Shown: piece by piece, positions 10,210 through 43,140 of the stretch
Layout of the letters: each line of letters begins with the position of its first letter
How positions within the stretch are numbered: position 1 is the stretch's first letter
NCBI GenBank assembly: GCA_020431405.1
Contig: JAGQIK010000357.1
Coordinates: 1-50,322 of the forward strand
From: Myxococcales bacterium
GTDB lineage: Bacteria; Myxococcota_A; Polyangia; GCA-2747355
DNA: 50,322 nt
Direction: 5' to 3'
Notes under the pieces: model-generated
What the model was told of the DNA's origin: nothing
The model's database searches: none
The model's input: the letters and a program-made list of their open reading frames with translations, nothing else
Translations under genes and position numbers: made by a program

Positions 10210-10997
10210 CGCCCGACGAGATCCTCGAGCGCTCGCAGTGGGACACATTCTGGGTGCCACTCGACGTCACCATCGTCGACCGTCCCGAGCTGCTCTATCT
10301 CGCCAGCACGCGCGACGTGACCTACCTCAACAACGTGCTGCGTCTGCGCGCTGCCGACGACGCGCTGCCTGCGCTGCTCGGTGAAGTGCAGCGGGCGCAT
10401 GCGGGTCGCGACTCGCACGTGATGGTGCCGCCCACGGTGGCGCGCCCTGCCCTCGAACGCGCGCTGCGCGACGCGGGCTACGGCATCGAGACACGCTCGC
10501 GCGTGGCCGTGATCTCGCCTGCGGCCTATATTCCGCGCGCGACGGCCGCGGCCGTGACCGTCGAGCGCGTGCTCGATGAAAGCGCGCTGCGCAGCTGCTA
10601 CGCCGTGGCCAGCGCTGCCTTCGAGACCAACCTCGGCGGCGACGACGAGCAGCTCGCCGCCGACATGGCGCAGCTCGGCCGCGCCGATCCGCGCGTCTAC
10701 CGCTACCTCGCGCGCGAGGCGCGCAGCGGCACGCCGATCTCGTGCGGCGGGCTGACGATCTATCGTGACCTGAGCTTCGGCCTGCTGTGGGGCGGAAGCA
10801 CCATCGCCGCGGCGCGCGGCCGGGGCGCCTACTCGGCGGTGCTCGCGGCTCGCCTATCGCTTTGCGCGCAGCTCGGCATCGCGCGCGCGGGCCTCTACGC
10901 GCAGCGCAAAACCTCGGCGCCGATCGTCGAGCGCCAGGGCTTCGAGCTCTTCGGCACCATGTGCTGGTGGGTCAACAAGGAGAGTGCATCAACATGA
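10206..10997 (+). CDS. GNAT-family N-acetyltransferase
   Basis: 263 residues. The ATG at 10206 overlaps the hydrolase stop as ATGA; a second in-frame ATG at 10200 is possible. The C-terminal half carries the acetyl-CoA binding motif A (STIAAARGRGAYSAVLAARL, with RGRGAY as the pyrophosphate loop), then a strand and GFELFGTMCWWVN, typical of GNAT motif B. The N-terminal half (about 1-110) resembles the extra domain of two-lobed GNAT proteins. It transfers an acetyl group from acetyl-CoA to an unknown amine. It is the fourth gene of the overlapped operon. Confidence 0.82.
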   Translation: MTPDEILERSQWDTFWVPLDVTIVDRPELLYLASTRDVTYLNNVLRLRAADDALPALLGEVQRAHAGRDSHVMVPPTVARPALERALRDAGYGIETRSRVAVISPAAYIPRATAAAVTVERVLDESALRSCYAVASAAFETNLGGDDEQLAADMAQLGRADPRVYRYLAREARSGTPISCGGLTIYRDLSFGLLWGGSTIAAARGRGAYSAVLAARLSLCAQLGIARAGLYAQRKTSAPIVERQGFELFGTMCWWVNKESAST

Positions 10998-11419
10998 CGA
11001 GCATCATGCCGCCCTTTCATCTCGCCTTCCCCGTGCGTGACATCGACAGCACGCGCGCGTTCTACGTCGACGTGCTCGGCTGCCGCGTTGGCCGCAGCGC
11101 CGAGCGCTGGATCGACTTCGACTTCTACGGCCACCAGATCTCGGCGCACGTCAGTGAAGAGCTGTCGGACGCGTCCACCAACGCCGTCGACGGCGACGAC
11201 GTCCCCGTACGTCACTTCGGGTTGGTGCTCACCGTCGAAGCCTGGCGCGCGCTCGTCGCGCGCCTCGAGGAAGCCGGCGTCGCGTTTCTCATCGCACCAC
11301 GCGTGCGCTTCGCGGGCGAGCCCGGCGAGCAACACACGGCCTTCGTGCGCGATCCGTCGGGCAACGCCATCGAGCTCAAGGCGTTCGCCGACCCGGCGCG
11401 CATCTTCGCGTCCGAGTAG
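10994..11419 (+). CDS. VOC/glyoxalase-family protein
   Basis: 141 residues. The ATG overlaps the GNAT stop as ATGA, with AAGGAGAG about 10 nt upstream. It shows the two beta-alpha-beta-beta-beta modules of the vicinal oxygen chelate fold. Candidate metal ligands are His in PPFHLAFPVRD, His in VPVRHFGLVL and Glu in GNAIELKAF. The sequence FVRDPSGNAIELK is characteristic. VOC proteins include glyoxalase I, dioxygenases and drug-binding resistance proteins; which applies here is unknown. It is the last gene of the operon and is convergent with the gene at 11478. Confidence 0.85.
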   Translation: MTSIMPPFHLAFPVRDIDSTRAFYVDVLGCRVGRSAERWIDFDFYGHQISAHVSEELSDASTNAVDGDDVPVRHFGLVLTVEAWRALVARLEEAGVAFLIAPRVRFAGEPGEQHTAFVRDPSGNAIELKAFADPARIFASE

Positions 11420-11477
11420 CGACGCGTCCGAGCAGCGAGTAGCTGGTTCGAGTTGTGGAGGGGAGTGTGGTCGCGGC

Positions 11478-39234: not shown

Positions 39235-40839
39235 TTAACGCGATCCGCTCTGCTGCTCGCGCTGCGGATCGACGCCCGTCTCGGCGAGCGCCTTGGCCGC
39301 CGCCGAGAGTGCATCGCGCTTCCACTGGCGCATCTTGCGCGTGCTGACGCCGTAGGCCTTGCTCGCCTCGCCCTCGGTGAGCTCGCCGGACAGCAGGTCG
39401 AGCACCAGCTGGCGCTTCTGCTTGCGTCCCCAGCGCTGATCGCGCGCCAACGCGGCGTTGGGCGTGGTGTGATCACTGAGCCGACCACCCTCGATCTTGG
39501 CCATCACCGTCTCGGGCACGGCCCAGCGCGGCACGACGACGCTGGTGACGTACTCGCGGAAGTAGTCGCCGTACATGTGAAGGTGACCCTTGTCGCCGGC
39601 GTCGACGCCCCAGCTGTTGTCGATCTTCCACTTGCGCACGCCGTTTCCGCGCGCGGCGCGGTCGTAGGCGGTGATCGCCATCAGGTGATTGGTCGGCGAC
39701 ACGCCGCCACGCAGCCGCGTCTTCTTGCTCAACCGCGGCGCCTCGATGAACGGCTTGTAGTTGAAGGCCGAGACGCTGAGGATGCCTTGGCCCTCTTTGG
39801 GCAGATTGTCGCCCTCGACGCGGTGGCGGTTGTCCTTGCTGACGTTGGTCGAAAAGGCCACCGCCTCGCCGCCGTCGATGGTGCGACGCACGACGTCTTC
39901 GAGCACCTGCAACGGCACGTAGCTGGCCTGGTGCACCAGCGCGCCGCCTTTGGAGCGCCAGCGCGACGTGTGGTAGTCGCTGATGCGCGGATCGTGGTTG
40001 AGGCGCACGTAGCTCAGGTCGTTATCGGTAAGTCCGAGGTGCTGGCGCAGGTACTGCTGCGGCGTCAGCTGCGACCGCCCGACGGCGACCTGCGCCGGCG
40101 GCTTGCCGAGCGTCGTGTCGAGCAGCTGGATGATCTTCTGCTCGTAGCGCGCGGCGATGGCGCTGCGTTTCTGCTGTGCCTGCTCGCTGCGGCCCTGCAC
40201 CTTGATCATCGCGCCCTGCGCGTTGGCGACCAGCGTGGTCAGCCTGCGCAGCAGCACGCCGCTCTTGTTGGCGTCGAAGCTCGAGGGCATCGCGCTCTCG
40301 GGCACGATGCCGTGCTGCTTGATGATCTTGTTGGCGTAGGCGTACCAGCCACCCTCGCCCAGCGAGTCGCTGGCGTAGTCGGGATCGGGCGTACGGCCGT
40401 GGGAAAGCTCGCTCGCGATGTGGCCGAGCATCGCGGTGGCCTGCATGCGCAGGGCGTGATGATTGACGAAGCTGACGCTCAAGTGCTCGGCCGCGCGCCC
40501 GCTGCGCTGCAGCGACTTGCTGCGCATCACCAGCTCGCTGCCGAAGATCCAGCAGCGCCCGCTCTGCTTCTGATCACGCGCCACGTGCGGCAGCCGCTCG
40601 AGGGGGATCGCGTTGCTGTAGCTGGTGTTGTGGCGGCGCAAGAACGAGCGCCGGAAGGCCATCGCCTTGAGGCCGACCTTTTGAATCGCCTTGAGCTTGA
40701 CCTGCGCGGGCAACGCGAAGCGCTGCCTATCGGTGAGCTGGCTCAGGCGAACGCGCTGCTGCCCGCTCGGCGGCGTGGCCTGCGCGCGCGCGCCCAGCGC
40801 GAACAGCAACGCGAGGATCAAAACCAGCTGCGCTCTCAT
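39235..40839 (-). CDS. exported bleomycin-hydrolase-like cysteine protease with HTH-like tail
   Basis: 534 residues; its ATG overlaps the upstream stop as ATGA (40839-40836). The signal peptide is MRAQLVLILALLFALGARA. The C1B papain-like domain keeps all catalytic residues: Cys96 in QKQSGRCWIFG, His385 in SPTNHLMAITAYD and Asn408 in KIDNSWGVDAGDKGHLHMY. EYVTSVVVPR marks the usual end of the bleomycin hydrolase fold. The last 72 residues (from about 463, bases 39453-39238) are extra: RWGRKQKRQLVLDLLSGEL, then EGEASKAYGVSTRKMRQWKR, a pattern of a helix-turn-helix as in transposase or SciP/DUF1153 proteins. Cytoplasmic bleomycin hydrolases lack a signal peptide and this tail. The upstream gene is its paralogue. 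Confidence 0.88.
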   Translation of the reverse strand: MRAQLVLILALLFALGARAQATPPSGQQRVRLSQLTDRQRFALPAQVKLKAIQKVGLKAMAFRRSFLRRHNTSYSNAIPLERLPHVARDQKQSGRCWIFGSELVMRSKSLQRSGRAAEHLSVSFVNHHALRMQATAMLGHIASELSHGRTPDPDYASDSLGEGGWYAYANKIIKQHGIVPESAMPSSFDANKSGVLLRRLTTLVANAQGAMIKVQGRSEQAQQKRSAIAARYEQKIIQLLDTTLGKPPAQVAVGRSQLTPQQYLRQHLGLTDNDLSYVRLNHDPRISDYHTSRWRSKGGALVHQASYVPLQVLEDVVRRTIDGGEAVAFSTNVSKDNRHRVEGDNLPKEGQGILSVSAFNYKPFIEAPRLSKKTRLRGGVSPTNHLMAITAYDRAARGNGVRKWKIDNSWGVDAGDKGHLHMYGDYFREYVTSVVVPRWAVPETVMAKIEGGRLSDHTTPNAALARDQRWGRKQKRQLVLDLLSGELTEGEASKAYGVSTRKMRQWKRDALSAAAKALAETGVDPQREQQSGSR

Positions 40840-42389
40840 CGCTGTGGCACCTTGTCGGCAGGGCGCACGTGGTCGCTGTCGTCGAGCGCGCGCCACATGG
40901 CGTTGAGCGCAGTCTTGCGCAGTGACTTGATCTGCTGCACCGATAGCTCGCTGTGCCGCGCCGCCTGGCGCTCCGAGACTTTGCCCGAGGCGACGTCGAA
41001 GACGAGGTTCTGCAGGCCGCGCTGGCCCGAGTAGCGCTCCTTGAGGCTCGGCTCCCAGGGCAGCAGCTTGGTCTTGTCGATGCGCTGCAGCAGCTTGCTC
41101 GAGACCACGTCGCGCGAGACCACCGCGGAGTCGATGTAGCGGCCGAGGTAGTCGTCGTACATGTGCAGCACGCCCTTGTCGCCCATCTTCTCGGTGAGCG
41201 CGCCCTCCACGCGCCACTTGACGACCTTGCCGCCCTTGGCGTCGTAGCCGGTGATCGCGAGCGTGTGGTCGGCGGCGGCGGTGTTGGCGCGCCGCATCTG
41301 CGCCTTGTCGGTGTTGGACTCGCCGACCAGCGGCGAGTAGTCGAAGGCGGCGAGGCTCAAGACGCCCACCGCCTGCTGCGGCGCCTCGCCAGAGACCAGC
41401 TGATAGGCGTTGCGAGCGCTGAGGTCGGTGGTCATCGGCACGGCCTCGCCGACCTTGAGCGACGCCACCACCGCGCGCCGGATCAACGCCAGCGGCACGT
41501 TGTAGTGCACCACGCCGTCGCGCTTGAAGCGGCGATACATCGGCCGGTTGGGATCGTTGGTCAGCACCACACGCTCGGGCTTGCTCGGCTGACCGAGCAC
41601 CTCCTGCGCGTAGCTCTTCGGCGTGTATCGCGTCTCGCCGATGCGAAACGCCTTGGGCGGCTTGCCGAGGGTCTTGTCGAGCAGCGCGTCGACACGCTTC
41701 TTGTAGCGCGCGACGATCTCCGTGCGCTGGGTCTTGGCCGCCGCGCTGTCGGGCTTCTTGTGGTCGTGAACGTGCTCGATGGCCTTGACGAACTCGGCCA
41801 TGGTGGCGTCGAGCTGCGCCTGCAAGTCGTTGCGTTTGCCGCGCGTGATGCGCGCCTCGTAGGCTTCGGGCATCGCGCCCTCGGGAACGATGCCGTGTTT
41901 GTCGATGAGGCTAAGACCCGCGCTCACCGGCGGCGTCTCGGCGAGCTCGCCCTTGGGGAAGGCGACGTTGAAGCGGCGGTGCTCGAGCTTGACGTAGCTG
42001 TTCAGCACCTCGTGCGCGCGCTCGCGCAGGTAGTGATAGACAAGAAACGTCACGCTCGGACGATGCAGCTTCTTGGGGGCACTGCCGGCCTGCGCCTTGG
42101 AGTACACGCTGCGCAGCGCGGCATAGATGAAGTCGTGCTGGCTGCCGTTGGCCGGGCAGACTTCCTTGTCGCGCGGCCGCGCCTCGAAGCCCTTGAGCGC
42201 CACCGAGTAACGGTTGGGTGCGTGCTGGCCGAGGAACGAGGTTCGCAACGCAGCGCGCCGTAGACCCTGGCGCCGTACCGAGACGCGTCCGCGATGCGGC
42301 TGCTCGGCGCGAGCGCTAGGGGCGGCAAACAACAGTACAGCGACGAGCAGCGACGAAGCTGCGCGCCCGCGCGAGCATAGCTTGAGCAC
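40836..42389 (-). CDS. exported bleomycin-hydrolase-like pseudoprotease with HTH-like tail
   Basis: 517 residues if GTG 42389 is used, which begins the signal peptide LKLCSRGRAASSLLVAVLLFAAPSARA; the open frame runs to a TTG at 42473. It aligns with the downstream protein along its length (IDKHGIVPEGAMP, LDKTLGKPPKAF, VLSLAAFDYSPLV, MGDKGVLHMYDDYL). The catalytic Cys is replaced: QHDFIYAA stands where the partner has RCWIFGS, so Asp86 is at the Cys position. His375 (DHTLAITGYD) is kept. Asn is lost (RVEGALTEK, Gly396). It therefore should not be a cysteine protease. LLPWEPS resembles the end of bleomycin hydrolase. A 68-residue HTH-like tail follows (SGQRGLQNLVFDVASGKVS, then ERQAARHSELSVQQIKSLRK). 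Coupled translation suggests a stoichiometric partner of the active enzyme. Confidence 0.83.
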   Translation of the reverse strand: MLKLCSRGRAASSLLVAVLLFAAPSARAEQPHRGRVSVRRQGLRRAALRTSFLGQHAPNRYSVALKGFEARPRDKEVCPANGSQHDFIYAALRSVYSKAQAGSAPKKLHRPSVTFLVYHYLRERAHEVLNSYVKLEHRRFNVAFPKGELAETPPVSAGLSLIDKHGIVPEGAMPEAYEARITRGKRNDLQAQLDATMAEFVKAIEHVHDHKKPDSAAAKTQRTEIVARYKKRVDALLDKTLGKPPKAFRIGETRYTPKSYAQEVLGQPSKPERVVLTNDPNRPMYRRFKRDGVVHYNVPLALIRRAVVASLKVGEAVPMTTDLSARNAYQLVSGEAPQQAVGVLSLAAFDYSPLVGESNTDKAQMRRANTAAADHTLAITGYDAKGGKVVKWRVEGALTEKMGDKGVLHMYDDYLGRYIDSAVVSRDVVSSKLLQRIDKTKLLPWEPSLKERYSGQRGLQNLVFDVASGKVSERQAARHSELSVQQIKSLRKTALNAMWRALDDSDHVRPADKVPQR

Positions 42390-42525: not shown

Positions 42526-43140
42526 TTACTGAAGCGGATACGGCGTGCGGAAGTAGTCCTTGCCGCTCGAGTGGCAGCCGACGCAGGTGCCCGCGCCGGT
42601 GGACGACGCCACGGGCGACGACCCGTCGGTCGTGCTCAGGATCTCGTACCAGTAGATGCCGTTGCCCTGTCCGCCGGCGTCGCTGCTGGCGTCGACCTTG
42701 ACCCACACGGCCCAACCCGAGATGTTGGCGCCGCTGAAAAGCTCTTTGACGCTGGCGGCGCCCACCGCGTGGTCGGTGTTGCCGGAGAGCGAGGTGTTCA
42801 GCGCGTCGTTGATATACGTCTGGACCTGCCCGTGCGGGCCGGTCGACGAGTGCGGCGCGCTCTCCTTGTTGGTCCACGACTTGTAGCTGCCGCCTTGCAG
42901 CCAGGTGAAGAGCTTGTCCTTGTCGGTGGGCACGCCGCTGGCGCCGCCGCTGTCACCGCCGCCGCCGGTGTCGCCGCCGCCGCCGGTGTCGCTGCCGCCG
43001 CCCGTGTCGCTGCCGGCGCCCGTGTCGGCCTTGCCCGCGTCGGGCTTGGCTCCGCTGTCGTCACTGCACGCGGCAGCGCCCAAAGTCAACGCGCCGATCG
43101 CGGCCAGTCGAACAGTCCATCTGAACATCGAAGAGATCAT
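42526..43140 (-). CDS. cytochrome P460-like lipoprotein with one haem c site
   Basis: 204 residues from ATG 43140, with AAGGAG about 10 nt upstream. The signal peptide has a lipobox (LTLGAAAC, Cys25), then Gly/Asp/Thr/Ser repeats (DTGGGSDTGGGGDTGGG). The domain from about 70 onward includes WLQGGSYKSWTNKE, WAVWVKVDAS and GNGIYWYEIL, and ends with the haem site CVGCHSSG (186-193) near the C-terminus. This order fits the cytochrome P460-type fold. P460 proteins bind a modified haem and some oxidise hydroxylamine; the activity here is unknown. It is the last gene of the minus-strand cluster beginning at 46282. Confidence 0.73.
   Translation of the reverse strand: MISSMFRWTVRLAAIGALTLGAAACSDDSGAKPDAGKADTGAGSDTGGGSDTGGGGDTGGGGDSGGASGVPTDKDKLFTWLQGGSYKSWTNKESAPHSSTGPHGQVQTYINDALNTSLSGNTDHAVGAASVKELFSGANISGWAVWVKVDASSDAGGQGNGIYWYEILSTTDGSSPVASSTGAGTCVGCHSSGKDYFRTPYPLQ

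Follow-up and report, generated by a model that had tools for sequence, protein, structure and literature searches.

Why should a bacterium make, from one coupled pair of genes, two homologous peptidases of which one has lost catalytic residues? This question is raised by a locus in the window, as we call the whole stretch of 50,322 nucleotides of Myxococcales DNA analysed here. Bleomycin hydrolases, the C1B peptidases, are known as rings of one subunit kind and, to our knowledge, the known C1B enzymes are encoded singly and without fusion to a helix-turn-helix tail. The pair spans positions 39235-42389 on the minus strand. Its upstream gene (40836..42389, minus strand; GTG start, 517 aa) encodes a putative exported C1B pseudoprotease, and its downstream gene (39235..40839, minus strand; ATG start, 534 aa) a putative exported C1B protease with an intact Cys/His/Asn set; we refer to the two products as the dead and the live protein. 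As a preliminary description of the locus had stated, both C1B-like frames are present and overlap at 40839-40836: they share 4 nt, an ATGA that contains the start of the live gene and the stop of the dead gene (40836..40839, minus strand). Both products are full-length C1B (bleomycin hydrolase-like, PF03051) proteins, with 150.3 bits for the live protein (E 1e-43) and 90.2 bits for the dead one (E 1.7e-25) against a curated cut-off of 22. The two proteins share 30% identity over 489 aa, a stretch that takes in their C-terminal extension.

In the live protein the catalytic Cys96 (codon at 40552..40554), His385 (39685..39687) and Asn408 (39616..39618, all on the minus strand), together with the oxyanion Gln90, align with all active relatives, and this protein is predicted to be the catalytic cysteine peptidase of the pair. 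Alignment places Asp86 of the dead protein (42132..42134) at the position of the catalytic Cys and Gly396 (41202..41204) at that of the Asn, while the catalytic His is kept as His375 (41265..41267; all minus strand). The residue numbers given in the preliminary description are correct for both proteins. AlphaFold models, built for the two window proteins from 25-sequence alignments, reached a pLDDT of 86 and a pTM of 0.86 for the dead protein, and 89 and 0.84 for the live one. Cys96 is the first residue of the active-site helix in the live model, and Asp86 is the first in the dead model. Because of this placement, the Cys and Asn of the dead protein are not merely shifted along the chain, the case that the preliminary description had named as fatal to its proposal; the alignments and the model rule it out. 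The mature dead protein contains a single Cys, Cys78; it precedes Asp86 by 8 residues, in a loop modelled with low confidence, and is not matched in either of the two related dead proteins described below.

Structural comparison of the dead model with VIA-align gave a Z of 36 to both 4k7c (PepW) and 1cb5 (human bleomycin hydrolase), with an rmsd of 2.5-2.6 over 388-389 residues, far above the next papain-like structures, which reached only Z 14. For the live model, Z was about 39-40 to human bleomycin hydrolase. The upstream protein thus has the complete fold of the family but lacks its active site.

The preliminary description had proposed looking for the same ordered pair in other genomes. 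Among 96 related genomes, two further dead/live pairs were found, both in one genome of the same order and another family (G003, contigs C67 and C3). In all three pairs, from two genomes, the dead gene comes first, the live gene second, and the two overlap by a 4-nt ATGA (L027 8804-8807 and L028 7137-7134 at the further loci). The positions of Cys, His and Asn are occupied by Ser/Asp/Gly and Ser/Arg/Ala in the two G003 dead proteins, and the set is intact in both downstream partners. Relatives in which the two genes are unlinked, which had been put forward as counter-evidence, did not turn up: every dead copy found (3/3) lies directly upstream of a live copy. Live copies can occur alone. One with the C-terminal tail is present in the genome of the window itself (G000, contig C119), and solitary live relatives without the tail occur in G001 (C473) and G003 (C43).

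The pair is lineage-restricted. Searches of the class (318 genomes) and of the phylum (379 genomes) did not add any member to this clade and showed, among the matches listed, no other adjacent PF03051 pairs. The C1B genes returned by a scan of genome contigs were all distant, and those of them that were checked included no dead copy; in a plasmid search, too, the C1B matches were all distant, and each covered less than 80% of the query. Thus, the pair is a feature of one small order, in which two of the four genomes examined have it. Gene neighbourhoods, compared for the three pairs and for the single copies, showed no conserved neighbours.

In the full maximum-likelihood tree the three dead proteins form one clade (support 98/94), and they stay together (95/97) in a tree built without the three catalytic segments. 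Support is lower for the grouping of their three live partners (91/87 and 79/82), and the branching among the dead proteins is the same as that among these partners. The two G003 copies are sisters in both the dead and the live group, which probably reflects a duplication of the whole pair in that lineage; owing to this common descent, the two G003 pairs are only partly independent of each other. A tree in which the dead and live proteins of the window were constrained to be recent duplicates was mildly rejected (p-AU 0.043). The dead frames are open despite about 31% identity between the families, and the fold is kept over 389 residues. These trees and frames indicate that the dead clade is old and has been kept, and that it predates the split of the two families. 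By the NG86 method, dN was 0.53 and dS 0.81 between the G003 dead copies, and 0.37 and 0.84 between their live partners, dS being near saturation in both comparisons. The dead copies thus evolve faster than the live ones and are still constrained, although less than the live pair. As the catalytic residues were lost in three different ways (D/H/G, S/D/G and S/R/A), no alternative triad is conserved, and this candidate explanation of the dead proteins was ruled out.

Both window proteins begin with a signal-peptide-like segment, as the preliminary description had noted, and both look exported, to the periplasm or outside. The signal peptides were called by eye and by hydrophobicity. That of the dead protein would comprise residues 1-28, ending ARA|EQP (42306..42389, minus strand; mean Kyte-Doolittle value of the hydrophobic 12-mer 2.5), and that of the live protein residues 1-19, ending ARA|QAT (40783..40839, minus strand; 3.1). 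Export in itself is not new, since exported C1B peptidases are known: the earlier statement that known bleomycin hydrolases are cytoplasmic was too strong in view of the secreted C1B enzyme of Parabacteroides distasonis, Pd_dinase (structures 5wdk/5wdl/6w4n). Signal-peptide-like starts are also present on many Bacteroidota C1B proteins.

The preliminary description overlooked a probable C-terminal helix-turn-helix domain on both proteins. In the live protein, this domain covers approximately residues 466-521 (39277..39444, minus strand), with three predicted helices and matches to HTH_Tnp_1 (E 1.1e-4) and DUF1153 (E 3e-4). In the dead protein a helix-turn-helix-like domain covers approximately residues 455-505 (40875..41027, minus strand), as judged from the aligned tail, its three predicted helices and the matches of the tail alignment to helix-turn-helix families. 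A tail of this kind, about 55 residues long, ends all six paired proteins and the solitary live C119 protein. The tails match HTH_28, HTH_Tnp_1 and DUF1153 (SciP-like), the best single tail having an E of 5.5e-6 to HTH_28, and the tail profile matches the structures 2jrt (E 1.2e-5) and 2oa4 (E 3.7e-5). Since the window tails fall under the curated cut-offs (22.7 bits for the live tail against HTH_Tnp_1, cut-off 24.1), their assignment to the transposase/SciP-type family is likely, not certain. The net charge of the tails as a group, +3 to +7 in live and +1 to +4 in dead proteins, is compatible with DNA binding and is not proof of it.

The live chain extends about 80 residues beyond the classical C-terminus, into this domain. 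Classical C1B chains end with the LPxWDP motif of the terminal arm, whereas the live proteins lack the motif and the window live protein has the helix-turn-helix tail instead; conversely, the tail is missing from all four classical phylum members in the tail alignment. For proteins with signal peptides, a domain of DNA-binding type is unusual. To see whether the tail is an adaptor shared with further exported proteins, four genomes of the order were searched; apart from two weak matches to 104-aa open frames, it occurred only on this C1B family.

What, then, does the dead protein do? We propose, with a probability of roughly 60%, that it is a structural or regulatory subunit of a mixed oligomer with the live protein, which would best explain the sequence data. 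A bicistronic message would be translated with coupling, so that both paralogues are made; both would be exported to the periplasm or outside and would then assemble into one mixed oligomer, in which the downstream live subunit would cut as a cysteine peptidase. The upstream dead subunit, having kept the C1B fold and the helix-turn-helix tail, could shape, limit or target the live one. Coupled production from one message is the sole step with direct sequence evidence, and translational coupling is no proof of binding. The recurrence of the same ordered pair, twice in a related genome, makes it most likely that the dead copy has been kept as a working partner of the live one. Moreover, since all three dead copies adjoin a live one and live copies can stand alone, the dead protein would appear to serve the live one. 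The live enzyme is not strictly dependent on such a partner, as the C119 protein, a close live relative with the tail, lacks one.

The dead protein could instead act as a soluble inhibitor, decoy or timing factor that competes for substrate or binds transiently, with no fixed mixed oligomer. We regard this as unlikely, though it is the strongest of the rival explanations. The dead protein is made first and its production is coupled to that of the protease, and the cleft elements of the dead proteins have decayed (in segment 136-170, identity is 54% among live and 21% among dead proteins). In addition, C1B enzymes are said to be synthesized without a proregion (PMC10707025), so other means of control would be useful, and there is a parallel in Plasmodium SERA5, an exported papain-like pseudoprotease with Ser for Cys that has been proposed as a regulator of the active SERA6 (PMC4671257). 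SERA5 and SERA6 differ from the window pair in being C1A-like and eukaryotic, in the nearly normal cleft of SERA5, and in having neither a C1B fold nor coupled translation. However, outside the cleft the dead proteins have kept the fold, and they have kept the tail as well, which fits co-assembly at least equally well.

Less probable still is a non-proteolytic job of its own for the dead protein, such as binding peptides or DNA by means of its retained fold and helix-turn-helix tail, with co-expression but no contact with the protease. Because the window dead protein keeps its His and evolves fast, a different function is conceivable, and the long branches of the dead proteins, the net positive charge of the tails and the remaining constraint on the dead copies would all suit it. 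Against this, all three dead copies were found paired with a live homologue, and no conserved neighbour genes hint at another pathway. Finally, that the upstream copy is a decaying tandem duplicate, functionless today after loss of its catalytic residues by drift, is hard to believe: the faster evolution of the dead copies and the different catalytic substitutions in each are what decay would produce, but this explanation was already weakened by the intact frames in two families, and it sits badly with a dead clade that is older than the split of those families and whose three members are all intact, full-length and signal-peptide-bearing, with the ATGA overlap kept.

If the mixed oligomer is accepted, its form can be guessed at. 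An alternating dead/live ring of the bleomycin hydrolase type is one candidate, in which the helix-turn-helix tails would bind DNA and might tether proteolysis to extracellular DNA or gate the ring instead of the C-terminal arm; we consider this detailed version improbable. The tail on exported peptidases is a second question raised by the pair. DNA binding by yeast Gal6 is an old observation, and the tail may bear on it.

As for known systems, the window proteins share the fold of the bleomycin hydrolase/Gal6/PepC-PepW group (MEROPS C1B, PF03051; Z 36 for the dead and about 39 for the live model to 4k7c, 1cb5 and 1gcb), and the live protein also shares its Cys/His/Asn set, whereas the upstream protein is catalytically dead. 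The paper on the structure of human bleomycin hydrolase (O'Farrell 1999, as cited in PMC4671257) has the word "self-compartmentalizing" for this enzyme in its title. Pd_dinase, a secreted dipeptidyl aminopeptidase (5wdk/5wdl/6w4n/3pw3; Z 34 to the live model), is likewise an exported bacterial C1B enzyme but, unlike the window pair, it is a single active enzyme, shorter, and without a dead partner or a helix-turn-helix tail. A parallel to the working principle that we propose comes from M16B heterodimers (MPP alpha/beta, TTHA1264/TTHA1265, SPH2681/SPH2682 and AlbF/AlbE): their two subunits are homologous and both needed, one of them lacks the catalytic motif, and the bacterial ones are encoded by neighbouring genes (PMC12731061). 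M16B enzymes are metallopeptidases of an unrelated family and fold, and their complex is proven, whereas that of the window pair is a proposal.

The claim that no system of this form had been described therefore holds in part. The literature on bleomycin hydrolase and pseudoproteases, as covered here with most subscription journals outside the coverage, yielded no dead/live pair within C1B; outside C1B, the M16B neighbouring-gene pairs are precedents for the form (PMC12731061). What appears new here is the conserved dead/live peptidase pair within C1B, dead/live peptidase pairs as such being already known. If the proposed assembly is true, this translation-coupled pair would mean that mixed subunits have arisen in this family too, as in M16B and other compartment-forming peptidases, and control of a live subunit by a dead one becomes testable with two small soluble proteins.

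Several neighbours and distant relatives of the pair deserve mention. Directly upstream of it and on the same strand (42526-43140, minus strand) lies a gene for a putative lipoprotein of 204 aa without a Pfam match; it contains a haem-type CxxCH motif (GTCVGCHSS) and a linker rich in Gly and Asp. Two genes upstream of one G003 pair (L027:4653-6269) is an exported protein that matches C39-like peptidases twice. The solitary live gene on C119 (L029:7081-8658) is followed after 29 bases by a gene for a 1291-aa protein (L029:8688-12563) that has a CCEQ motif besides matches of the TPR and alpha-2-macroglobulin-like kinds, possibly a protease trap. In the class there are distant C1B-like proteins (L007, L008, L009, L012, L062 and L064) that keep Cys and His and in which Asp replaces the catalytic Asn (motif KDSGRS). 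A Bacteroidales genome has two close C1B genes (L047:7788-8948 and 10228-11442), with Cys/His/Asn intact in both.
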